From: Rhodobacterales bacterium
GTDB taxonomy: Bacteria > Pseudomonadota > Alphaproteobacteria > Rhodobacterales > Rhodobacteraceae
Assembly (NCBI GenBank): GCA_025362795.1
Contig: JANYFE010000006.1
Span: 1 to 48,611, forward strand
Direction of reading: 5' to 3'
Length of the DNA stretch: 48,611 bases
Shown piece after piece: positions 120 through 48,611 of this stretch (position 1 is the first letter of the stretch; each line of letters begins with the position of its first letter). Made by a program: the position numbers and the translations under genes. The notes beneath the pieces are model-generated. The model was not told the DNA's origin. It was given only the letters and a program-made list of their open reading frames with translations, and searched no databases.

Positions 120-267
120 GAAAAAAACCATCCCGCTCTAGGCAACCTGTGTTGGGGGAACCTCTGTTGAAGGTGGCAACGCTTGTTTTCATCTTTGCGA
201 CAGTCGCCCGGAATCCGTCAGGGCAGCCCCCTTTCACCCCGTGCTGCCATCCGGTATGGTCCGGCCC

Positions 268-1029
268 ATGTTAAAAATCCGGATCATCCCCTGTCTGGAC
301 GTCGCCAATGGCCGGGTGGTCAAGGGCGTCAACTTTGTTGACCTGCGCGATGCGGGTGATCCGGTGGAGGCGGCGCGGGCCTATGATGCGGCGGGGGCGG
401 ATGAGCTTTGTTTTCTGGACATCATGGCGACCGAGGAAAACCGCGGCACGATGTTCGATATGGTGACGCGGACGGCAGAGCAATGCTTCATGCCGCTGAC
501 GGTTGGGGGTGGCGTACGCAGCCATCTGGACGTGCGGGCACTGTTGCTGGCGGGGGCGGACAAGGTCTCGTTCAACTCTGCCGCCGTCGCCAACCCCGAC
601 GTAGTGGCAGAGGCGGCGGACCGTTTTGGCAGTCAGTGCATCGTCGTGGCGATAGATGCCAAAACCGTAAACCCCGGAAAGTGGGAGGTTTTTACGCATG
701 GCGGGCGGCGGGCAACCGGGATTGATGCGGTGGAATTTGCGCAGACGGTAGCGGCGAAAGGCGCGGGGGAAATCCTGTTGACCTCGATGGACCGTGACGG
801 CACCAAGGCCGGATTCAACCTGGCTCTGACCCGCGCTGTGGTCGATGCGGTCGGCATTCCGGTCATCGCCTCGGGTGGGGTCGGGACGCTGGATCATCTG
901 GTGGAGGGCGTGACCTTGGGCGGAGCCTCGGCGGTGCTGGCGGCGTCGATCTTTCACTTTGGCACCTTTACGATTGGTCAGGCCAAGGCCCATATGGCGG
1001 CGGCGAGTATTCCGGTGAGGGTATCTTGA
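268..1029 (+). CDS. hisF: Imidazole glycerol phosphate synthase, cyclase subunit HisF
   Basis: HisF is the (beta/alpha)8-barrel half of IGP synthase. It uses ammonia from the HisH glutaminase and PRFAR to make imidazole glycerol phosphate and AICAR in histidine biosynthesis. The start [15 protein letters not shown] is the standard HisF N-terminus. The two catalytic aspartates are visible in [12 protein letters not shown] (residue 11) and VVAIDAK (near 130), and the phosphate-binding loops VGGGVR and ASGGVG are intact. I chose the ATG at 268 over the upstream GTG at 241 and ATG at 256 because it gives the family's usual 253 residues. The stop overlaps the TTG start of hisE, so the two genes are probably translationally coupled. 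hisH and hisA are not present upstream; an IS630-like end is there instead. Confidence 0.97.
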
Positions 1030-1334
1030 GCGCATTGGACCGACTTGCCGCAACGATCGCTGACCGCAAGGGGGCGGACCCGGACACGTCTTGGACCGCG
1101 AAACTGCTGGCCAAAGGGCCGGAGAAATGTGCCGAGAAATTTGGCGAAGAGGCGGTGGAGGCGATTATCGAAGCGGTCAAGGGCGACAAGCCCAAGCTGA
1201 CCGCAGAGGCGGCGGATGTGCTGTATCACCTTTTGGTCATGCTGGCCGCGCGGGATGTGACGCTGGAGGATGTGCTGGCGGAACTGGAACGCCGCGAGGG
1301 TCAGTCGGGGATTGCCGAAAAGGCGTCGCGCTGA
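1026..1334 (+). CDS. hisE: Phosphoribosyl-ATP pyrophosphatase HisE
   Basis: HisE hydrolyses phosphoribosyl-ATP to phosphoribosyl-AMP, the second step of histidine biosynthesis. The 102-residue protein shows the all-alpha MazG-like fold signature: [17 protein letters not shown], with metal-binding glutamates, followed by [13 protein letters not shown]. It is a stand-alone HisE, not fused to HisI. The likely start is TTG at 1026, whose last two bases are shared with the hisF stop codon (TTGA), which implies coupling to hisF. No clear intrinsic terminator follows. Confidence 0.95.
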
Positions 1335-1399: not shown

Positions 1400-3013
1400 T
1401 CAGGCGCTGATCAGCCTGGAGCGCGCCACCAGATCGGTCTTGGCTGACGCGGTGAGCGACATTTCCGCCACCACATGATAGCGGCGCGGGCGTTCGTGGG
1501 GGGCGAGTTCGGCTTTGGCTGCGATTTCGGCAGCGCGTTGCGGGTTTACGCAGCTGGCGTCTGCGACAAGGACGGCTTGAAGTTCAGCCCCTAGAATGTC
1601 ATGGCGCTGGAAAACCACGGCGGCACTGGTGATGCCGGGGGAGGCACCCAGCACCTGCTCGATGGCCTATGGCGAGGCGGCGGCCGAAGGGTTCAGAGGG
1701 ACGGGGCGGCGCACTCGCGCAGTTTGGTCGGGGTCGTCCCAATGGCCGTGGAAGACCCCTGCCCCGCGATGGACGAACTGGCCCCATTGGCCGGGCGGCA
1801 GCAGCTGGCAGTCGTCGTCCACAATGCACAGCGCCGATCCGGGCGGGGCGGTGCCTGTGATCTGCGGGGCGGTGGCGTTAGATTGCGGCAGGCACCAGCG
1901 TCAGGCCGGGAGTGGCAGGCAGGATCAGACTCAAACAAGGGCGGTAAAGAGCCAGAAGCTGGGTCCAGCCGTAATCGTGGCCAAACGGAACGGCGCACAG
2001 CAGGCGGTCTTGGGCATGGAACCCTATGGCTGCCTCCACGCGGGTAGCGCAGTTCAGCAGGGTGGATTGGAGTTGCACGACGCCCTTGGGACAGCTTGTG
2101 TAACCGGAGGTGAACGCGATTGAGCTGATACCACCCGCGCTGTCACCGTGGAGAGGCGCGTTATGGCCGGTCAGGGTGGCCGGGTGCCAGGCCGGCGTTG
2201 CGGCAGATTGAACCAAGCTGTCGCCGAGGACGACGTGGGCGCTGGTGCGGCTGGCGATGCTGTCAAGCACCTCTGGCCGCAGGTCGGCAGGGGCGCGAAC
2301 GGGGGTTGCACCCAGTGCCCAGAGGGCGGCGGGAAGGGCGGCGGCGGCCGGCCCGTTGGTCAGATGCAGGATGACTCGGTGGCCCTGCCCGCTGCCCAGC
2401 TTGGCCAGAGCGGCGCCCTGAGTGCGGGCCAAAGCGCCGAGTTCGGCAAAGCTGTGGGTCAGATCGCCTTGCAGCAGTGCGCCGCGACATCGCCTTTTCC
2501 AGCGACCGACAGGCGCTGGGTTGAGTTGGGGTTCGGCGTAGGTTTTCCAGTCCCCCGGGCCGGGGCACGACGGGTCCGCGTCGGCTTGTGTGGTGGCCGT
2601 CAGGCTTTGTGGTTCAGCGCCAAGCAAAGTGCAAAGCGGCGTCAGGGTTTCGACCGGCGCGGCCAACAGATCTTCGAACCGGTAAAGGCAGGCGGCCTCG
2701 CCCTGCGCCTCGGCAAAGGCCGGCAGCGCGTCGGTCCGGTCGGCCCGCGCCTGTGCCAACGCCTCGACCGGGGTCGTGAAACGGCTGAGCCAGAGCCGCA
2801 TTTCGGGCATGAAGCGGCCCATCCGTGCCGCTAGGTCGAGGGTGGAGGCAATGACATCCAGCGGGTGACGCACCATGCAGATGAACCATGCGTGGCCTGC
2901 AAGAAGATCGGTGAGGGCGGGCAGGAAATTTTGGGGTGCTAGTCCAGAATGCGCCGCAAAAGCGTGCCGCCGGAGCGCGAAAAGCCCAGGAAGACCGCGA
3001 ATTGCGGGGTCAT
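1400..3013 (-). pseudogene. Decayed sulfotransferase / AMP-dependent ligase fusion
   Basis: The ATG at 3013 overlaps the decarboxylase stop (ATGA) and begins a PAPS-sulfotransferase signature, FLGFSRSGGTLLRRILD. That is cut by an in-frame TAG and continues as HPKIS. A different frame (from 2876) holds the second sulfotransferase motif, VRHPLDVIAST, far closer to the first than normal, so there is also a deletion. This frame runs into an adenylate-forming ligase domain with a P-loop-like A3 motif (FTSGYTSCPKGV, with T-to-Y and G-to-C changes) and stops at 1878. Ligase pieces continue in other frames (SALCIVDDDCQLLPPGQWG near 1840-1800; C-terminal domain at 1654-1400 ending TASAKTDLVAR). Core motifs between A3 and the C-terminal domain are missing. 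The parent probably activated an acyl or aminoacyl group for the ACP of this cassette. The product now is certainly non-functional as a ligase. Confidence 0.85.
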
Positions 3014-4254
3014 ACCATAGCGCCTGACGGGGTCTGATCGGTCAGCCGTGTGCCGTCCCAGATCATTTCGCGCACCACGGGATGGCTGATGAAGCCCGCC
3101 GGACTGGCGGTTGCGCCATATGCACCGGAGAGCCCGACCGACAGCACATCGCCGAAATTCGCCCGTGCAAGGTCGAGGTCACGGGCCAGAAGGTCGATCA
3201 AGGTGCACAGCGGCCCGGCCAGCGTGACCTTTTCGCGTGGGCCGTCCGGGGTGGACAGGTTGCGGATTGGCCAGTTGCGGCGCACCACCGACCCCATCAT
3301 GCCACAGGCCGCGAGGTGGGCGTTAAAGCCGCCGTCACAGATCAGGATCGTGGCACCCCGCCCGGATTTGCGGGTCAGCACGCGGGTCAGAAGCTGTCCT
3401 GCCGGGGCGGTCAGCCAGCGGCCAAGTTCAAGGTCAATCGCGGGTTGCCCGCGCGGGCGCAGTTGCAACAAAGTGCCGAGTGTTTTGGCGGCGACCTGCG
3501 CAAGGTCCAGAGCGGCCTGCCCTTCGTGGTAGGGCACGCCGAAACCAGAGCCGAGGATCAGCCGCTGTGGCGGCTGGCCCAGAAAGGCGGACAGGGTTTG
3601 GGCGAGTTGGGCACAATTCTGCATGTTTGCCGCAATGGCATCCGGGTCGAGCGAATTGGACCCCGCATAGAAATGCATGCCATGCAGCGCCAGACCGGGA
3701 AGGGCAGCAATTTCAGACAGCACGGCGGGCGCGTCTTCCTCGTCAATCCCGAACTGTGTGGCAACGCCAGTCATCCGGGCCCCAAAGCCCTTGGGGCTGG
3801 CGACGGGACTGATCCGGGCCAGAACCGGCTGCACGCTGCCATGCCGCAGGGCAGCCGCACTGGTCTGCTGGGCTTGATGCAAAGATTCGACAACCATATG
3901 GCCGATGCCCCGCATCACAGCCTCGTCGATCTCTGCCGCGCGTTTGCCGGGGCCGGTGAAACTGATGCTGTGCGGTGCGGCACCAACCTCCAGGGCGCGA
4001 CGCACTTCGCCGATCGAGGACGCGTCAAACTGGGCACCGCAGGCCAGCAGCTGGCGTAACACGGCGGGATGGGGATTGGCCTTGACCGCATAACGGATGC
4101 CGAGGGTCGGAAACGCGGCGGCCAGAGCCAGATAGCGGGATTTGATCTGAGTGAGGTCATAGACATAGGCCGGCGTTTCGATGCCATGGCAGAGGGATAT
4201 GAGCGTTGCGTCGTCCAGAGCGGCAGCGCGGGCGTTTCGTGTGGCCCGGTTCAT
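3010..4254 (-). CDS. Fold-III PLP-dependent decarboxylase (DapDC/BtrK-like)
   Basis: This 414-residue enzyme belongs to the Orn/DAP/Arg decarboxylase group 2 family. The PLP lysine is in RYAVKANPHP (about residue 59). Other expected elements are GMHFYAGSNS, the phosphate-binding GSGFGVPY, ELGRWLTAPAG, the CDGGFNAH cysteine/aspartate motif, and the late tyrosine in YGATASPAGF. It is unlikely to be the lysine-pathway LysA because it sits in a coupled cassette: its ATG overlaps the hydrolase stop and its stop overlaps the sulfotransferase/ligase start. Known relatives in such settings are BtrK, which decarboxylates an ACP-bound glutamate, and the decarboxylases of exosortase-A loci. I infer action on an aminoacyl-ACP; the substrate cannot be told from sequence. 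All catalytic motifs look intact. Confidence 0.85.
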   Translation of the reverse strand: MNRATRNARAAALDDATLISLCHGIETPAYVYDLTQIKSRYLALAAAFPTLGIRYAVKANPHPAVLRQLLACGAQFDASSIGEVRRALEVGAAPHSISFTGPGKRAAEIDEAVMRGIGHMVVESLHQAQQTSAAALRHGSVQPVLARISPVASPKGFGARMTGVATQFGIDEEDAPAVLSEIAALPGLALHGMHFYAGSNSLDPDAIAANMQNCAQLAQTLSAFLGQPPQRLILGSGFGVPYHEGQAALDLAQVAAKTLGTLLQLRPRGQPAIDLELGRWLTAPAGQLLTRVLTRKSGRGATILICDGGFNAHLAACGMMGSVVRRNWPIRNLSTPDGPREKVTLAGPLCTLIDLLARDLDLARANFGDVLSVGLSGAYGATASPAGFISHPVVREMIWDGTRLTDQTPSGAMV

Positions 4255-5210
4255 AGCGTTGTCACAAGATCGAAGTTCGCGGCCTTCCCGCTGGCGACCC
4301 GCACGATCAAGTCGATCACGTCGCGCAGTTTCTGCCGCGACGCCAGGGTGGCCATCGGGTTGTGCTTGTCATCCTTGGGGATCGGATGGACCTGGGCTGC
4401 GGGATACTGCGCAACAAGGCGGGCGTTGTTTTCGACGTCAATCAACATGTCGGCACCAAAAATGCTGTAAACCGGCGGTCCTGGGCCTTGCCAGCAGTTG
4501 CACAGCGGCGCGAAGGCGGTGCCAGCCTGTGACAGCGGTATCTTGCGACCGGGCGAGTAGAACCGGCCGCCGATCATGTTGGCGCTGGCTTGCCCGTCGA
4601 GCAGCGCCGCATGGACAGCGGGCCCCCCGCCCGCGCTGGCGCCGACGTATACGCCGGGGCGAATCCCGCGGTGGCCAAGGGTGGACTTAAGCAATTGCAG
4701 CGCAGCGTAAAATCCGCCGGCCGCGCCCAGGTTCCAATTGCCGAAGGTGCCGTCGTCGCTGGTCAGGATGATGACATCGACCGGATAGGCCCCGAGCAGA
4801 TCGAGAAAGCGACAGTTCGCCATGAACAACCCATTGCGGCGGCTGGTAAAGCAGACCATCGCGGGCCGGGCATCTGCAACGGTGGCCGAACGGTACAGGA
4901 CAGCGCCGTCAAACAGCACCTCGCGGCCAAATTCGTAACCGCCGCGACTGGTGAACTGGTTCCATTGCGGCGCCAAGCGGGCGATCCGCAGTCGCGTATC
5001 CTCCGTCACCATGATGGCGACCAGTTGATAGACCTCGGCCAATTCCTGTGGTGCCAGCATGTCGCCAAGGTCGGTCAGCGCGTCACCGAGCCTGCGGTCG
5101 CGCACGTCGGACACCAAAAGGTCCAGCAGACCGATGGCGATGTCCGACAAGGACAGATCATGTGCAAAGAGCGCTGCCTTGGGGGGCGCTGCGCCAAGAT
5201 CAAGTGACAA
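4251..5210 (-). CDS. Alpha/beta-hydrolase-like protein of the ACP cassette
   Basis: The 319-residue protein carries a nucleophile-elbow-like motif, VGASAGGGPA (about residue 192), after a strand with VDVIILTSDDG. A late histidine lies in PKDDKHNPMAT, near the expected catalytic position. This fits an alpha/beta hydrolase (esterase or thioesterase), though overall similarity to a named family is not obvious to me. It starts with TTG at 5210 inside the last codons of the ACP gene, and its TGA overlaps the decarboxylase ATG, so all are coupled. A plausible role is release or editing of the ACP-bound product, comparable to the hydrolases that accompany ligase/decarboxylase pairs in exosortase-A loci. 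Function is inferred from context. Confidence 0.65.
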   Translation of the reverse strand: MSLDLGAAPPKAALFAHDLSLSDIAIGLLDLLVSDVRDRRLGDALTDLGDMLAPQELAEVYQLVAIMVTEDTRLRIARLAPQWNQFTSRGGYEFGREVLFDGAVLYRSATVADARPAMVCFTSRRNGLFMANCRFLDLLGAYPVDVIILTSDDGTFGNWNLGAAGGFYAALQLLKSTLGHRGIRPGVYVGASAGGGPAVHAALLDGQASANMIGGRFYSPGRKIPLSQAGTAFAPLCNCWQGPGPPVYSIFGADMLIDVENNARLVAQYPAAQVHPIPKDDKHNPMATLASRQKLRDVIDLIVRVASGKAANFDLVTTL

Positions 5211-5445
5211 GGCTACGCTCTACATACCTGCAAATTCTTGAAATAGTGTCGAAATTTTCGAAGGTCAGATCAGCAGGCGGCACCTGTTCGCCCAGATGGG
5301 TTTCGACAAAACTGATCACGGTGACCAGTGCGAAACTGTCCAGCAAACCCGTCGACATCAGGCCCTTGGCCGCTTTCAGCGCGTCCGGGTCAATGCCGGA
5401 TTCGTCTGAAATCAAGTCAAGAAGTTTGACTTCAAAAATGCTCAT
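5200..5445 (-). CDS. Acyl carrier protein (phosphopantetheine-binding)
   Basis: The 81-residue protein has the ACP four-helix pattern, with the pantetheine serine in STGLLDSFALVTVISF (about residue 38), then an acidic loop and ENFDTISRICRYVE. I start it at the ATG at 5445 (MSIFEVKLLDLI), preceded by a GGAG about 9 bases upstream; an upstream in-frame start at 5463 has less support. The LLDSFALV form differs from the fatty-acid ACP (DSLD) and is typical of small discrete carriers in amino-acid or natural-product pathways. It is the first gene of the minus-strand cassette, so the promoter should lie in the 277-base gap up to 5722, where I recognise no specific site. Confidence 0.85.
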   Translation of the reverse strand: MSIFEVKLLDLISDESGIDPDALKAAKGLMSTGLLDSFALVTVISFVETHLGEQVPPADLTFENFDTISRICRYVERSLVT

Positions 5446-5722: not shown

Positions 5723-6817
5723 TCAGCCGTTGAACAGAAAGTGCAGAACGTCGCCGTCTTTGACTTCGTAGGTCTTGCCTTCGACCCGGAATTTACCGAC
5801 TTCCTTGGCCCCTGCCTCGCCGTTGCCCGCGATGTAATCGTCATAGGCCACGGTTTCCGCGCGAATGAAGCCTTTTTCGAAATCGCCGTGGATCACGCCT
5901 GCGGCCTGTGGGGCAAGAGTGCCCTTGGATATGGTCCAGGCGCGGGCCTCTTTCGGGCCTACGGTGAAGTAGGTTTGCAGGCCCAGCAGCGCGTAACCTG
6001 CCTTGATCAGACGGTCGAGACCGGCTTCGTGCAAGCCCATTTCTTCCAGAAACATCGCGGCTTCGTCGGCGGGAAGCTGGCTGATTTCTTCCTCGATCCG
6101 GGCAGAGATCACGACGCAGGCGGCACCCTGGGCACGGGCCATTGCGGCAACTCGGTCGGACTGGGCGTTGCCGGTGGCAGCCTTGACTTCTTCGACATTG
6201 CAGACAAACAGCACCGGCTTGGCGGTGAGAAGCTGCAAGAGACGCCATTGGCGCTGGTCGTCCTCGGACACTGTGACGGTGCGGGCCGGTTTGCCTTCGT
6301 TCAGCACGACAAGCGCGGCTTTCAGCAGGCGGTCCTGATCGATCATGTCCTTGTCGCCGCCCTTGATCTTGCGGGCAAGACCGGCAATCCGACGCTCGAT
6401 GCTTTCCATATCGGCCAGCATCAGTTCGGTTTCAATCGTTTCGGCATCGGCAATCGGGTCGATGCGGCCTTCGACATGGGTAATGTCGCCGTCTTCAAAA
6501 CAGCGCAGGACATGGGCGATGGCGTCGCATTCGCGGATGTTGGCGAGAAACTGGTTGCCCAGCCCCTCGCCCTTGGACGCGCCGCGCACGAGGCCTGCGA
6601 TATCGACAAAGGTCATCCGGGTCGGAATGATCTGTTTGGAGGCGGCGATGGCAGCCAGCCGGTCCAGACGAGCATCTGGCACCGCCACTTCGCCAACGTT
6701 CGGTTCAATGGTGCAGAACGGGAAATTCGCGGCCTGTGCGGCGGCGGTGCGGGTCAGCGCGTTGAAAAGCGTCGATTTGCCGACATTCGGCATGCCGACG
6801 ATACCCATCTTGAACCC
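5723..6817 (-). CDS. ychF: Redox-regulated ATPase YchF
   Basis: YchF is an Obg-family P-loop NTPase that prefers ATP to GTP and binds ribosomes; it is linked to translation and stress responses. The start MGFKMGIVGMPNVGKSTLFN contains the Walker A motif. VDIAGLVRGASKGEGLGNQF gives switch II, and CNVEE replaces the canonical NKxD, as in the family. The C-terminal TGS-like domain ends with VKDGDVLHFLFNG. I chose the start at 6817 because it yields 364 residues, matching the E. coli protein, although two ATGs lie up to 7 codons upstream. The gene is convergent to nothing obvious and is separated from the ACP cassette by a noncoding gap. Confidence 0.97.
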   Translation of the reverse strand, partial: GFKMGIVGMPNVGKSTLFNALTRTAAAQAANFPFCTIEPNVGEVAVPDARLDRLAAIAASKQIIPTRMTFVDIAGLVRGASKGEGLGNQFLANIRECDAIAHVLRCFEDGDITHVEGRIDPIADAETIETELMLADMESIERRIAGLARKIKGGDKDMIDQDRLLKAALVVLNEGKPARTVTVSEDDQRQWRLLQLLTAKPVLFVCNVEEVKAATGNAQSDRVAAMARAQGAACVVISARIEEEISQLPADEAAMFLEEMGLHEAGLDRLIKAGYALLGLQTYFTVGPKEARAWTISKGTLAPQAAGVIHGDFEKGFIRAETVAYDDYIAGNGEAGAKEVGKFRVEGKTYEVKDGDVLHFLFNG

Positions 6818-6975
6818 CATCGGAACCCCCATTGGCACAGCATGCGCCAGACCGGGGCGGGTCTAGGCAAGGGCGGGTCCGGGGTCAAGCCCCGGTGGTC
6901 CGCTGTCAGGCAATGGCGGGATGATCTTGCATGTCGGCACGGAGTGGCGACATCTTAGGTGGAGTGATTCAAGAT

Positions 6976-7950
6976 ATGGGAACCGACATGCGCCCGATCC
7001 TGCGACCGACATTTTACGGCCTGGCCCTGATCCTGTGCGGCGTGATCCCGGCAGGGGCCTATGAGAACCCGATCCTGCCCGCGATCCGCGATCCCGACTG
7101 CATTGTGATGAACGGCATCTATCATCTTGTCGAGCCGGGGGGGACCTCGGCCAAGGGTGGCTATTTCAACTATCGCACCTCGCGCGATCTGCTGCACTGG
7201 TCCGACCCGGTGCGGATCTTGCCACAACCCGCAGGTCTGGGCGTCTGGCAGGGGTCATATTATCGAGACACCGATGGCAGGCTGTATTTCTATTATGCCG
7301 CGGTCGATCTGGGGCGGGACAAGACCATCCATGTCGCGGCGGCTGACAGCCCGACCGGGCCTTTCACCGAACTTGGTGTGGTGGCGGACGGCATTGACCC
7401 CTATCCGTTCCGCGATGATGACGGGACGTTGTGGCTGTATTACAAGGACGACCGGGCGGCGCAAAAAGGCATCTGGGCGCAACGGATGGACGGCCCGGCC
7501 AAGCTGTCTGACGCCGCTGCGGTCGAGGTTCTGCATCCGCAACCTCATACGTTCGAAGATGGCGGCTATCTGACGGTCGAGGGACCGACGCTGATCAAGC
7601 GGGCAGGCAAGTATTTCCTGATCTATTCCGGTGGACCGTTCGGGGCGCCGCGCTATGCCGTGGGTTATGCGGTCGCGGATCACCCGGAGGGGCCGTTCAC
7701 ACGGGGGCCGAATAACCCGATCCTGTCGAATGCCACCAGCCCGGATGTCTATTCGCCCGGCGTGCCCTCTGTCGTGGCGGATGGTGCGGGGGCATCGTGG
7801 CTGGTCTATCGCCAGCGTGCGACGGCGGAAAGGCTAAGCCCGCGCCAGTTGACGATTGACCGGCTGGATGACAGCAAAGCCGCACAGGGGCTGCTGTCGG
7901 CAACACCGACGCATGGTGTGGCGATGCCGGACCCGGTGCCGCTGCCCTGA
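6976..7950 (+). CDS. Secreted glycoside hydrolase family 43-like protein
   Basis: A predicted signal peptide (LRPTFYGLALILCGVIPAGA) is followed by ENPILPAIRDPDCIV, which carries the GH43 general-base Asp. DGIDPYPFRDDDG carries the Asp that tunes the acid, and LTVEGPTLIKR carries the general-acid Glu. The five-bladed propeller fold is suggested by repeated short sheets such as YYRDTDGRLYFYY and WLYYKDD. GH43 enzymes act on arabinose- or xylose-containing glycans, but the substrate cannot be assigned. I prefer ATG 6976, 12 bases after GGTGGAG; ATG 6988 would also give a good signal peptide. It stands alone, with no sugar transporter or regulator beside it. Confidence 0.85.
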   Translation: MGTDMRPILRPTFYGLALILCGVIPAGAYENPILPAIRDPDCIVMNGIYHLVEPGGTSAKGGYFNYRTSRDLLHWSDPVRILPQPAGLGVWQGSYYRDTDGRLYFYYAAVDLGRDKTIHVAAADSPTGPFTELGVVADGIDPYPFRDDDGTLWLYYKDDRAAQKGIWAQRMDGPAKLSDAAAVEVLHPQPHTFEDGGYLTVEGPTLIKRAGKYFLIYSGGPFGAPRYAVGYAVADHPEGPFTRGPNNPILSNATSPDVYSPGVPSVVADGAGASWLVYRQRATAERLSPRQLTIDRLDDSKAAQGLLSATPTHGVAMPDPVPLP

Positions 7951-8014
7951 GCGGCACGGGTCCGCGCGGTCCGGCGTTGTCGCTTGCGGGGCGGCAATGG
8001 CACGGCGCAGGCCG

Positions 8015-9094
8015 TCAGGGAGCGAAGGCCAGGCAGGCGATCGGCGGCAGATGGGCACTGAGCAACTGCCAGTCCGCCCCTTCATTGCCCGACACCCACA
8101 GACCGCCGGTGGTCGACCCCATCGCCAGCAGCCGGCCAGAGCCATCGGCCACTAAAGCGTGGCGATAGATCAAATCGTAGCTGTCATCCTGCGGCAGGCC
8201 GTTTGACAGGCTGCGGAAAGTGGCACCGCCATCGCCGGTTTCCGTCACCACCAGACGCGCGTCGACCGGCAGGCGGCATTCGTCTTTCTGTGCCGGGGCA
8301 AAGAAAGCGCGGTTGCGGTCCGTGGGATGGGGGGCCACGGCAAACCCGAAAGCCGAGGGTTTGACGCCGGTGCTTTCGTGCCAGTTCATCCCGCCATCAT
8401 CGGATACGAAGATGCCGTTGTGGTGCTGGCACCAGATGCGGTCGGGATCGGTGGGCGCGGCGGCGATCAGATGGGGATCTTGCAGGTTGGGGTCTTGTTC
8501 CTGCCCCGGCGGCACATAATCTGACCGCAGGCCGTGGCCGCCCAGCGCCCAGCTTTCGCCGCCGTCGCGGGTGATCCAGACCCCGCCAATCGATACGCCG
8601 ATGACGATGTGCCGGCTGTCGCGCGGATCGACCAGAATGGAATGGATGCCGGCATGGTCATAGCCCGCGCCGAACCATTTCTCGCGCCCCGGCACATGCC
8701 ACAAGGGTTCGTTCAGCGCCCAGGTCGCCCCTTTTTCGGTGGATTTGAACAAGCCACCCGGCAAGGTACCGGCCCAGATCGTGCCGGGCTCGTCTTCGCC
8801 GCCAGCGGCAAAGGTCCAGATGAACTCCAGCGCGGCAGCATCGGGGTCGTCAGACTTGGGATAGGCTGGCGCGGGCAGTTCCAGCCAGCTTTTGCCGCGA
8901 TCATCCGAGCGGTGGAGTTTGCAGCCGAAATGGCCGTGGTACAGCGAGACATAGAGGCTGCCATCGCGCGGGTCGTCCAGCACAGCCGTCACCGGCCCCG
9001 CGATGAAGGCGGGCTTGCCGGGTGAAACCCAGCCACCCGGTGTGTCATCATACCGAAACAGCCCCTTGCGGCTGCCAACCCAAAGCGTGGCCAT
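8015..9094 (-). CDS. BNR/YVTN-repeat beta-propeller protein (sortilin-like photosystem-assembly fold)
   Basis: The 359-residue protein contains repeated Asp-box motifs of the form S-x-D-x-G-x-x-W: SDDRGKSWLEL, TRDGGESWALG, SDDGGMNWHES, a degenerate STEKGATWALN and TGDGGATFRSL. These mark successive blades of a beta-propeller, as in sialidases, YCF48-like and sortilin-type proteins. There is no signal peptide: it begins MATLWVGSRKGLF, so it is probably cytoplasmic. Sialidase catalytic residues (arginine triad, Tyr/Glu) are not apparent, so I do not call it an enzyme. The next gene on the same strand, MoaD-like, ends only 3 bases upstream of its start, so both are one transcription unit. Confidence 0.8.
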   Translation of the reverse strand: MATLWVGSRKGLFRYDDTPGGWVSPGKPAFIAGPVTAVLDDPRDGSLYVSLYHGHFGCKLHRSDDRGKSWLELPAPAYPKSDDPDAAALEFIWTFAAGGEDEPGTIWAGTLPGGLFKSTEKGATWALNEPLWHVPGREKWFGAGYDHAGIHSILVDPRDSRHIVIGVSIGGVWITRDGGESWALGGHGLRSDYVPPGQEQDPNLQDPHLIAAAPTDPDRIWCQHHNGIFVSDDGGMNWHESTGVKPSAFGFAVAPHPTDRNRAFFAPAQKDECRLPVDARLVVTETGDGGATFRSLSNGLPQDDSYDLIYRHALVADGSGRLLAMGSTTGGLWVSGNEGADWQLLSAHLPPIACLAFAP

Positions 9095-46347: not shown

Positions 46348-46422
46348 GGCCCGTTCGTCTATCGGTTAGGACACCAGGTTTTCAACCTGGGAAGAGGGGT
46401 TCAACTCCCCTACGGGCTGCCA
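46348..46422 (+). tRNA. tRNA-Glu (anticodon TTC)
   Basis: The 75-base sequence folds as a cloverleaf: acceptor GGCCCGT with ACGGGCT (G-U at the first pair), D arm, anticodon loop TTTTCAA with anticodon TTC, T arm AGGGGTTCAACTCCCCT and an encoded CCA. Just after it the composition changes and IS remnants begin, so its 3' end is a natural integration site; no direct repeat of that end can be seen within the window. Confidence 0.96.
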
Positions 46423-47440: not shown

Positions 47441-47791
47441 TGTTTCTCGGCGCGCCGCTTGACGCTCTGCCCCCTTGGTCCGGCGCAACTTTCTCCGAGA
47501 TGCACGTCGCGAAGCGCGGATCAAGCATTGACCGCGCCCGAAATGGCAGCCATCATCCCGGTCAGCTTCGTTGCAACCGGGCAGATGATCGTCTGCTTGT
47601 CACACGATCGGGAGTAACCTTAGTCCATGTGGGTCGAATTCGTCGATACCGCAATTATAGGCCGAATTGTTTAATAGAACACCTGCTTTAGCGTATGCTT
47701 CACGAACTACGGACCAACTTCGAACTTCTCGGCGCTTTTTTTGCAGATAGACAATCTCTATCGAAAAGTACACTTTTGGCGGCTTGGAAAA
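47441..47791. other. Unassigned AT-richer spacer
   Basis: 351 bases between the IS remnant and the second ACP gene. Short open frames exist on both strands, but none has family-like sequence or the codon use of the neighbours. The part from about 47600 on is distinctly AT-rich. I see no gene here. Confidence 0.5.
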
Positions 47792-48034
47792 TTGACCCTC
47801 AGCAAAGATGATATCCTGGAATTCCTTTAAAGCGACCTTGGCGTGGACGTTGATGGGCTTGACGTCGATATGCCGCTGTTCAGCAGCCAACTGGTCGACA
47901 GCTTTGCCTTGGTCACGCTGATGATGTTCCTCGAACGCGAGGCGGGCATTCGCATCGCACCCGCCGACGTGAACCTGGACAACATGGACACGATCGGGCG
48001 GATGCTGGCCTATGTGTCTCGGGTTGCAGCGTGA
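47792..48034 (+). pseudogene. Second acyl carrier protein, interrupted by a stop codon
   Basis: The frame reads LTLSKDDILEFL from a TTG at 47792, then TAA at 47828-47830, then SDLGVDVDGLDVDMPLF, SSQLVDSFALVTLMMFLERE and MDTIGRMLAYVSRVAA. The pantetheine Ser is in VDSFALV, like the VDSF/LDSF motif of the ACP at 5200-5445. The stop falls in helix I, so the natural product would be truncated. A restart at GTG 47843 would give 63 residues that keep the Ser but lack the first helix; whether that folds is doubtful. Its TGA overlaps the decarboxylase start. Confidence 0.75.
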
Positions 48035-48472
48035 TCCCGGACTGGCGCGTCGATGCGGCACGCCAGCATAGAACACCGCTGTACGTGTATGACGCCGATG
48101 TGCTGACCGACCGTCTGCGCACCCTGTCTGACCTGTTCGGCGACCGCTTCGGGCTGAGCTATGCGATCAAGGCCAATCCGAACCTTGCACTGCTGCGGGT
48201 CATCAAGCCTTGGCTCAGCACCTTTGACGCCTCGTCCCTGGCCGAGGTGGAACGCGCGGTCGCGGCGCACATGGCGCCCGGGCATGTGACCTTTTCCGGC
48301 CCGGCCAAGCGGCGCGAAGAACTTGCGCAGGCGATGGCGATGGGGTTGGGCGAACTGGTGTTGGAACATGTCGACGAGGCGCGGCTGGCAAGCGATGTTG
48401 CGCAGCGGCTGGGCCGGGTGCAGGACGTGCTGGTGCGGATCAACCCGATGCGGATGCCCCGAGGCTTTGGCG
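48031..48472 (+). pseudogene. Second fold-III PLP decarboxylase, interrupted by an IS3 insertion
   Basis: From the GTG at 48031, overlapping the ACP stop, the frame reads TPLYVYDADVLTDRL and LSYAIKANPNLALLR, with the PLP lysine, then FDASSLAEVERAV and GHVTFSGPAKRREE, all like the 3010-4254 protein. It reaches INPMRMPRGFGV at 48472, which aligns with ISPVASPKGFGA in the intact paralogue. There the sequence changes to an insertion-sequence end, so about 150 of some 410 residues are encoded before the IS. The rest lies beyond the window, if it survives. Confidence 0.85.
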
Positions 48473-48611
48473 TGAACCGCCCCTTGTTTGCCGGAGACCT
48501 TCAACCTGACTAAGGATGAGGGCTATGGAAAAGAGTAAGACATCAAATCGTTATTCACCTGAGATGCGGGCGCGTGCTGTCCGCATGGTGCTGGAGCATC
48601 AAGGCTCCTAT
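48473..48611 (+). mobile_element. IS3-family insertion sequence (left end, partial)
   Basis: TGAACCGCCCC followed by TTGTTTGCCGGAGACC starts at 48473 and resembles terminal inverted repeats of IS3-group elements as I know them. An orfA begins at 48525. The element runs out of the window and interrupts the second decarboxylase gene. Confidence 0.75.
48525..48611 (+). CDS. IS3-family OrfA transposase, N-terminal part
   Basis: The frame reads MEKSKTSNRYSPEMRARAVR and MVLEHQGSY, the standard start of OrfA helix-turn-helix proteins of the IS3 group (…RYSPEVRERAVRMVLEHQGE…). AAGGATGAGG lies 4-13 bases upstream of the ATG as ribosome binding site. The gene is cut by the window end; nothing in the visible part is damaged, so this may be an active copy. 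Confidence 0.85.
   Translation, partial: MEKSKTSNRYSPEMRARAVRMVLEHQGSY

Follow-up and report, generated by a model that had tools for sequence, protein, structure and literature searches.

We analyzed a stretch of 48,611 nucleotides from a Rhodobacterales bacterium of the genus Pseudorhodobacter (assembly GCA_025362795.1, contig JANYFE010000006.1, positions 1 to 48,611; hereafter the window), in which genes for an acyl or aminoacyl carrier protein (ACP), a hydrolase-like protein and a fold-III pyridoxal 5'-phosphate (PLP) decarboxylase are followed on the same strand by sequences related to a sulfotransferase and an AMP-forming ligase (Table 1). Comparison with relatives revealed that this group is a decaying copy of a five-gene cassette, which is whole in one congener (G009) and, as far as the contig shows, in a second (G011).

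Table 1. Features of the cassette, its insertion site and a second remnant (window positions unless a locus is named; sulfotransferase and ligase residues numbered as in L006)
Feature	Position	Strand	Remarks
hisF and hisE, second insertion-site flank	241..1334	+	L007 has the same neighbour
AMP-forming ligase pseudogene	1400..2480	-	residues 20-211, about 290-352 and about 385-469
Sulfotransferase pseudogene	2472..3013	-	residues 1-35 at 3013-2909, 104-257 at 2924-2472
Fold-III PLP decarboxylase, carrier-linked (BtrK-side) type	3010..4254	-	414 residues; PF02784 2.7e-36; GPLCT motif
Hydrolase-like protein, putative serine hydrolase or acyltransferase	4251..5210	-	319 residues; GxSxG as GASAGG
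ACP	5200..5445	-	81 residues; PF00550 1.8e-08; serine in ...GLLDSFAL...
ychF-type GTPase, insertion-site flank	5723..6838	-	convergent with hisE in 7 cassette-free congeners
Second ACP remnant	47789..48034	+	one in-frame stop near start; by eye closest to the L092 ACP
Second carrier-type decarboxylase, N-terminal third	48031..48513	+	PF02784 3.6e-16
Intact sulfotransferase orthologues	L006:2563-1643; L007:2007-2930		
Intact ligase orthologues	L006:1646-225; L007:2927-4339		

The cassette and its decay in the window genome

The ACP, hydrolase-like and decarboxylase frames are intact on the minus strand from 5445 to 3010. The first two overlap by 11 bases (taking TTG at 5210 as the start of the second), the hydrolase-like and decarboxylase frames by 4, and the decarboxylase overlaps the start of the sulfotransferase remnant by 4. 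Because orthologues occur in the same order in loci L006 and L007 (52-72% identical to those of the window), these three are true genes and not chance frames. Thus, three of the four overlapping, co-directional genes described in the original prediction were upheld, whereas the fourth, read there as a single sulfotransferase/AMP-ligase gene, proved to be a pseudogene made of two separate genes wrecked by deletions. The window ACP is 59% identical to its L006 orthologue and shows weak likeness to DltC models (NCBIfam) and to the D-alanyl carrier protein 1dv5 in the Protein Data Bank (PDB). Its gene has a G+C content of 0.50 (0.58 at third codon positions, GC3), and the values of its neighbours are far higher (0.61-0.65; GC3, 0.73-0.77). 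The name of the putative hydrolase rests on the GxSxG motif and an invariant aspartate and histidine: S192, D258 and H283 were invariant in an alignment of all three orthologues.

When 121 related genomes were searched with the hydrolase-like protein, five matched, including the window's own, and two congeneric genomes among them held orthologues. We set aside weak matches in G004 and G008; strong matches were confined to three Pseudorhodobacter genomes (the window's included). All five genes were intact in L006 (5608 bases; G009), and L007 (5972 bases; G011) was intact from the middle of the hydrolase gene, where the contig starts, so that the ACP side lies off the contig; both genomes are about 80% complete. 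In these two loci the sulfotransferase (306 and 307 residues, respectively) and the ligase (473 and 470 residues) are separate genes with a 4-base overlap. A search for homologous loci with an intact fourth gene, as the original prediction had proposed, was therefore successful, with two intact genes in place of one. On a broader scale, a hydrolase profile matched two of the 390 genomes of the order, the window's own and the distant G337; the latter match was set aside as a lone gene with about 30% identity over 178 residues, and no cassette protein was matched among the called frames in the surrounding 18 kb. A single-sequence hydrolase scan gave 33 pattern matches but no relative in genome contigs, and none in plasmids.

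Mapping with the intact orthologues (tblastn) revealed three in-frame stops and four missing blocks between 3013 and 1400. The stops, one in the sulfotransferase (2941-2939) and two in the ligase (1880-1878 and 1669-1667), lie within matched pieces or at their ends. The frame opens with 24 sulfotransferase residues and then stops, and further matches occur in other frames. The window's sulfotransferase remnants matched Sulfotransfer_3 (Pfam) below the cut-off, and the ATP-binding loop of the ligase is degenerate (SGYTSCPKG versus SGSTGRPKG in L006). The apparent sulfotransferase-ligase fusion is an artefact of deletion and decay, because the two are separate intact genes in L006 and L007. A true fusion enzyme, which a 387-codon open stretch across both remnants might suggest, is already refuted for the window genome by the stops and, in view of the missing blocks and the separately encoded orthologues, has practically nothing left to recommend it. 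The window copy thus serves as a warning, since a fusion read off the raw sequence proved to be debris.

The cassette of the window is located between a ychF-type GTPase gene on one side and hisF and hisE on the other. L006 ends on the ychF side and L007 on the hisE side. We surveyed this site in 13 hisE stretches from 15 congeners, a set without G008 (no hisE match) and G011. The site was empty in seven of the 13 (L071-L075, L077 and L078), where ychF and hisE are separated by about 95-215 bases without any cassette match; in L070 the gap was about 1 kb, again with no cassette match. The other five (L069, L076, L079, L080 and L081) were uninformative, with no ychF match in the stretch; L069 is the hisE contig of G009 itself, whose hisE flank is not tied to its cassette. 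The cassette thus either was inserted at this junction of housekeeping genes or is a segment often lost from it. Adjoining ychF in the window (6931-9094) are genes for a family 43 glycosyl hydrolase and a BNR-repeat protein.

To compare rates of decay, we divided the non-synonymous (dN) branch of the window copy by the mean of the two orthologues' branches, with 300 codon bootstraps. Branch ratios were used because pairwise ratios of non-synonymous to synonymous (dS) change were near saturation (dS 1.1-1.8; 1.0-2.4 in the branch test). The ratio was 3.43 (2.67-4.50) for the pooled ligase pieces and 1.75 (1.30-2.34) for the hydrolase, i.e., both evolve faster in the window than in the live copies. 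Two values do not fit so well with a dead route: the sulfotransferase piece was indistinguishable from 1 (1.47; 0.93-2.41), and the decarboxylase showed no rate increase (1.04; 0.77-1.38), which is odd for a dead pathway. The decarboxylase may keep some work, or the decay may be recent.

We also looked for replacements within the window's genome. No second hydrolase copy was found there, nor a second decarboxylase at 1e-80. No intact ligase orthologue was found at 1e-30; the next match was a distant general synthetase with 109.5 bits, compared with more than 1000 bits for the ligase orthologues in the same search. The sulfotransferase search recovered the remnant only, among the five of 17 first-look candidates that were scored. 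With both ligase and sulfotransferase reduced to pseudogenes and no intact orthologue to be found, this genome should no longer run the route, whose first step (loading) is lost, and the working pathway originally proposed for it was not supported. Alternatively, a shortened cassette could still work here, with another ligase serving the ACP and decarboxylase in trans and only the sulfotransferase and ligase lost. The three intact frames are consistent with this idea, as is the decarboxylase dN branch (0.124, versus 0.131 and 0.109 in the orthologues), which gives no sign of relaxation. However, the lack of an intact close ligase and the raised hydrolase rate make it unlikely.

A decarboxylase of the carrier-linked type

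The window decarboxylase scored 339.7 bits with TIGR03099 (cut-off 478) and 215.8 bits with the lysA model TIGR01048 (cut-off 297.9), both below cut-off. Its best relatives in the PDB were the two BtrK structures (4.5e-56 and 6.4e-56); the best diaminopimelate decarboxylase reached only 4.5e-41, and a profile search gave the same order (1.1e-62 for BtrK versus 2.6e-49). In a tree of 26 rows, built without the partial second decarboxylase and the window genome's own LysA, a branch with 100/100 support parted 10 rows, five of them LysA, from 16 rows that contain BtrK, the exosortase-A labelled enzymes and the window decarboxylase. The motif around the catalytic cysteine followed this split: all 10 LysA-side rows have GPVCE, whereas the carrier side has GPLCT (13 rows), GCLCT (2) or GPLCA (1). 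In LysA, the glutamate after this cysteine contributes to binding the distal amino group of diaminopimelate. A separate LysA is encoded elsewhere in the genome (C64:49482-50702; 455.7 bits, above cut-off), and the window decarboxylase is only 29-30% identical to the LysA of four congeners. Identification of the window enzyme as LysA was therefore rejected, given the separate LysA, the carrier side of the tree, the GPLCT motif and the score below cut-off.

It could still be supposed that the enzyme acts on a free amino acid and that its ACP neighbour is incidental, as the 215.8 bits from the lysA model might hint. Besides the tree, the motif and the low identity to LysA, gene neighbourhoods speak against this: ACP and ligase adjoin the relatives in several genera. 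In L006 the ACP and AMP-forming ligase are linked and intact, in L007 the ligase lies beyond the sulfotransferase, and in the window it is the pseudogene. Together with a LysA of the genome's own, these observations render a free-amino-acid decarboxylase very unlikely. The comparison with BtrK made in the original prediction was thus borne out, by the nearest solved structure, the split from LysA and the ligase and ACP adjoining the relatives.

Outside the genus, the closest enzyme by tree was that of G324 (100/98), followed by a supported group of nine rows (100/99) with the Paracoccus, Neorhizobium, G049, G038 and G079 enzymes, each adjoining a ligase and an ACP. Ligase, ACP and decarboxylase genes are also adjacent in Shinella, S. 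meliloti and G324. A family-61 glycosyltransferase gene lies upstream in Paracoccus (by annotation) and G049 (by Pfam), and a similar trio is found in polysaccharide loci of Shinella, Aureimonas and S. meliloti, the Aureimonas ACP being on the other strand about 2 kb away. An Azoarcus match lies beside one-carbon genes, and no ligase or ACP was seen there. Of the 25 matches listed (252 records in all), seven neighbourhoods were inspected, together with one from a second listing. In addition, a scan of genome contigs with the decarboxylase gave 19 loci, two of which are the cassettes; in the other 17, no cassette protein except the decarboxylase was matched at E <=0.01, and the five put in the tree (L012, L013, L014, L018 and L023) all fell on the LysA side. 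On Gemmobacter and Tritonibacter plasmids (L038 8944-11418 and L100 13947-16382, respectively), a carrier-type decarboxylase occurs inside an annotated acyl-CoA dehydrogenase gene, in clusters whose annotation includes KAS-III-like, ACP, ligase and hydrolase genes. These clusters look like an uncharacterised natural-product line.

The best NCBIfam models of the decarboxylase (TIGR03099) and of the ligases in L006, L007 and L092, the G324 cassette locus (TIGR03098), belong to the exosortase-A set, which would suit an accessory operon of an exosortase-A (PEP-CTERM) system. As another point in favor of such an operon, the contig of the G324 cassette carries XrtE (exosortase E/protease, TIGR04162; 365 bits, cut-off 150) about 9 kb away and XrtD (629 bits, cut-off 400) about 22 kb away. 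On the other hand, the ligases scored only 247, 274 and 327 bits, respectively, against a cut-off of 592, and the decarboxylase likewise stayed below its own. The exosortase of the window genome is a VPLPA-CTERM XrtD on another contig (G000:C65:38710-39462, L102; 603 bits, cut-off 400), and no exosortase was matched in G009 or G011, which are incomplete as noted above. A linked exosortase A was not found, as none of the three typed exosortases is exosortase A, and the related triads lie in polysaccharide loci on plasmids. We regard the operon as highly improbable and the exosortase-A link as one of resemblance only. Of the co-occurrences that the original prediction proposed to check, polysaccharide genes were seen beside several relatives, whereas linkage to exosortase A was not. 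In L102, an opposite-strand frame near XrtD looks by eye like a glycosyltransferase.

Sulfotransferase loci and the proposed pathway

A sulfotransferase profile matched at least four of the 390 genomes of the order at 1e-25 (the window's own, G324, G218 and G336) and at least two of 385 genomes of the class at 1e-45 (the window's own and G731); at most five or six first-look candidates per genome were scored, and more may exist. Three arrangements were observed. First, G324 (L092) has the order ACP, decarboxylase, sulfotransferase and ligase, with 45, 47, 41 and 35% identity, respectively, to the Pseudorhodobacter counterparts, followed by an acyl-CoA-dehydrogenase-like gene; a divergent gene for a membrane-bound O-acyltransferase (MBOAT) lies about 1.6 kb before the ACP. 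The ACP-decarboxylase-sulfotransferase-ligase set thus recurs in another genus. Second, G218 (L093) has MBOAT, ligase, ACP and sulfotransferase but no decarboxylase. Finally, G336 (L094) and G731 (L097) have a ligase-ACP fusion, sulfotransferase and MBOAT. Sulfotransferase, ligase, ACP and MBOAT therefore occur together in all four sulfotransferase loci found outside the genus, whereas the three cassette-bearing Pseudorhodobacter genomes, of which two are about 80% complete, gave no MBOAT match.

Ligase model scores were obtained for L006, L007, L092 and L093: the decarboxylase accompanies the TIGR03098-like ligases of the first three loci, and the ligase of the decarboxylase-free L093 passes an amino-acid adenylation model (333 bits, cut-off 317) and reaches 245 bits with the DltA model (cut-off 476). 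The sulfotransferases belong to Sulfotransfer_3 (PF13469) with a PRSG[GT]T loop, as judged by Pfam in L092-L094 and by alignment with these in L006 and L007. This loop binds 3'-phosphoadenosine 5'-phosphosulfate (PAPS), which should be available because a match to adenosine 5'-phosphosulfate kinase was found in all four genomes tested. Some further features of these loci were noted. The ligase-ACP fusion followed by sulfotransferase and MBOAT (L094 6484-9353 and L097 7148-10053) comes from two different families of Alphaproteobacteria, and in both loci a frame of about 330-360 residues without a Pfam match precedes the fusion. The G324 cassette (L092, L098 and L101; C11) lies on a 106-kb contig that appears plasmid-like, with ParA-like and weakly ParB-like genes.

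Based on these comparisons, we consider it likely that the live cassette copies decarboxylate an amino-dicarboxylic acid on a carrier, and that the window copy is decaying and its route dead. The gene order, the decay, the carrier side of the decarboxylase and the recurrence of ACP, decarboxylase, sulfotransferase and ligase in another genus are shown by the data, whereas we infer the substrate and each reaction, loading and decarboxylation by analogy with BtrK and VinO and the later steps on weaker grounds. The ligase would most likely adenylate an acid of the glutamate or aspartate type and load it through the side-chain carboxyl onto the phosphopantetheine of the ACP, and the decarboxylase would then strip the alpha-carboxyl, giving a gamma- or beta-aminoacyl-ACP. 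By the same analogy, the decarboxylase may accept only the carrier-bound substrate. The sulfotransferase would most likely act downstream, sulfating the aminoacyl group or the molecule that receives it. The hydrolase would most likely also act downstream, in release or transfer; it occupies the position that MBOAT acyltransferases hold in the four related sulfotransferase loci of other genera, and it may fill the place of the MBOAT in Pseudorhodobacter.

Besides the decarboxylase and sulfotransferase rates given above, several observations weigh against this reading. Polyketide-synthase sulfotransferases (4gox and CurM 4gbm) act on carrier-bound chains, but they matched the cassette enzyme more weakly (2.2e-06 and 4.9e-05, respectively) than did tyrosyl-protein sulfotransferases, its best solved relatives (4.7e-08). 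Its sole NCBIfam match at 1e-8 was the Nod-factor enzyme NoeE, far under the cut-off, and the sulfotransferase may thus modify a glycan or a protein. BtrK has a long branch, and its place within the carrier side is unsupported by the tree. The hydrolase-like protein has no recognised family: searches gave no Pfam family at E <=10 (although few matches above 0.1 survive the HMMER filters), nor any NCBIfam model at 0.1 or PDB chain at 1, and its structure predicted from three sequences was poor (mean pLDDT 42.8).

On-carrier decarboxylation is already known from a few antibiotics. The cassette resembles BtrJ/BtrI/BtrK of butirosin synthesis (Bacillus circulans) in its ligase, stand-alone carrier and fold-III decarboxylase, BtrK being the nearest solved relative. 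It differs in its extra sulfotransferase and hydrolase, in that no aminoglycoside genes were noticed beside it, and in its ligase of the AMP-forming (PF00501) class, BtrJ belonging to another class. BtrK converts BtrI-S-glutamate to BtrI-S-GABA (gamma-aminobutyrate) on the carrier (PMC7857480). For vicenistatin, an adenylation enzyme loads 3-methylaspartate on a stand-alone ACP, where a PLP enzyme decarboxylates it (PMC11284099). The VinN/VinL/VinO line shares ligase loading and PLP decarboxylation on such a carrier, but it feeds a polyketide synthase, which the cassette lacks, and the likeness is by that description and not by VinO sequence. As for the exosortase-A pair TIGR03098/TIGR03099, the Aureimonas and S. 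meliloti enzymes that carry this label lie on the same side of the tree, whereas the cassette scores well under the cut-offs and no linked exosortase A was seen.

Finally, the sulfotransferases with AMP-forming ligase, ACP and MBOAT in L093, L094 and L097 recall D-alanylation by DltA (ligase), DltC (carrier) and DltB (MBOAT); MBOAT was found in L092 as well but had no match in the three Pseudorhodobacter genomes. The Dlt system is not known to include a sulfotransferase. Conceivably, although we doubt it, the sulfotransferase sulfates the carrier-bound amino acid or the decarboxylated amine and the MBOAT or, in Pseudorhodobacter, the hydrolase hands the sulfated aminoacyl group to a surface polymer, which would make this new carrier-based line a sulfated counterpart of Dlt alanylation. 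An open-licence literature search found no paper working out the exosortase-A labelled relatives and, among the entries it listed, none on a sulfotransferase with ligase, ACP and MBOAT or on the cassette itself. On-carrier decarboxylation thus recurs in Alphaproteobacteria as portable cassettes, several beside polysaccharide genes, and one branch joins it to a sulfotransferase. If the latter acts in the same line, this would hint at a modification of surfaces or small molecules that has yet to be described, and small proteins would suffice to test what TIGR03098/TIGR03099-like enzymes are for.

A second remnant in the window

Near the right end of the window lie an ACP remnant and the N-terminal third of another carrier-type decarboxylase (Table 1). 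This decarboxylase fragment is 53% identical to the L092 enzyme of G324 and 43% to the first decarboxylase of the window. The genome's four TIGR03099 matches included no other part of this remnant. Thus, the genome contains the remains of two such cassettes. The second remnant lies beside tRNA-Glu (46348-46422) and sequences that by eye resemble transposase relics, and it breaks off before an apparent transposase start, likewise judged by eye, at the end of the contig.

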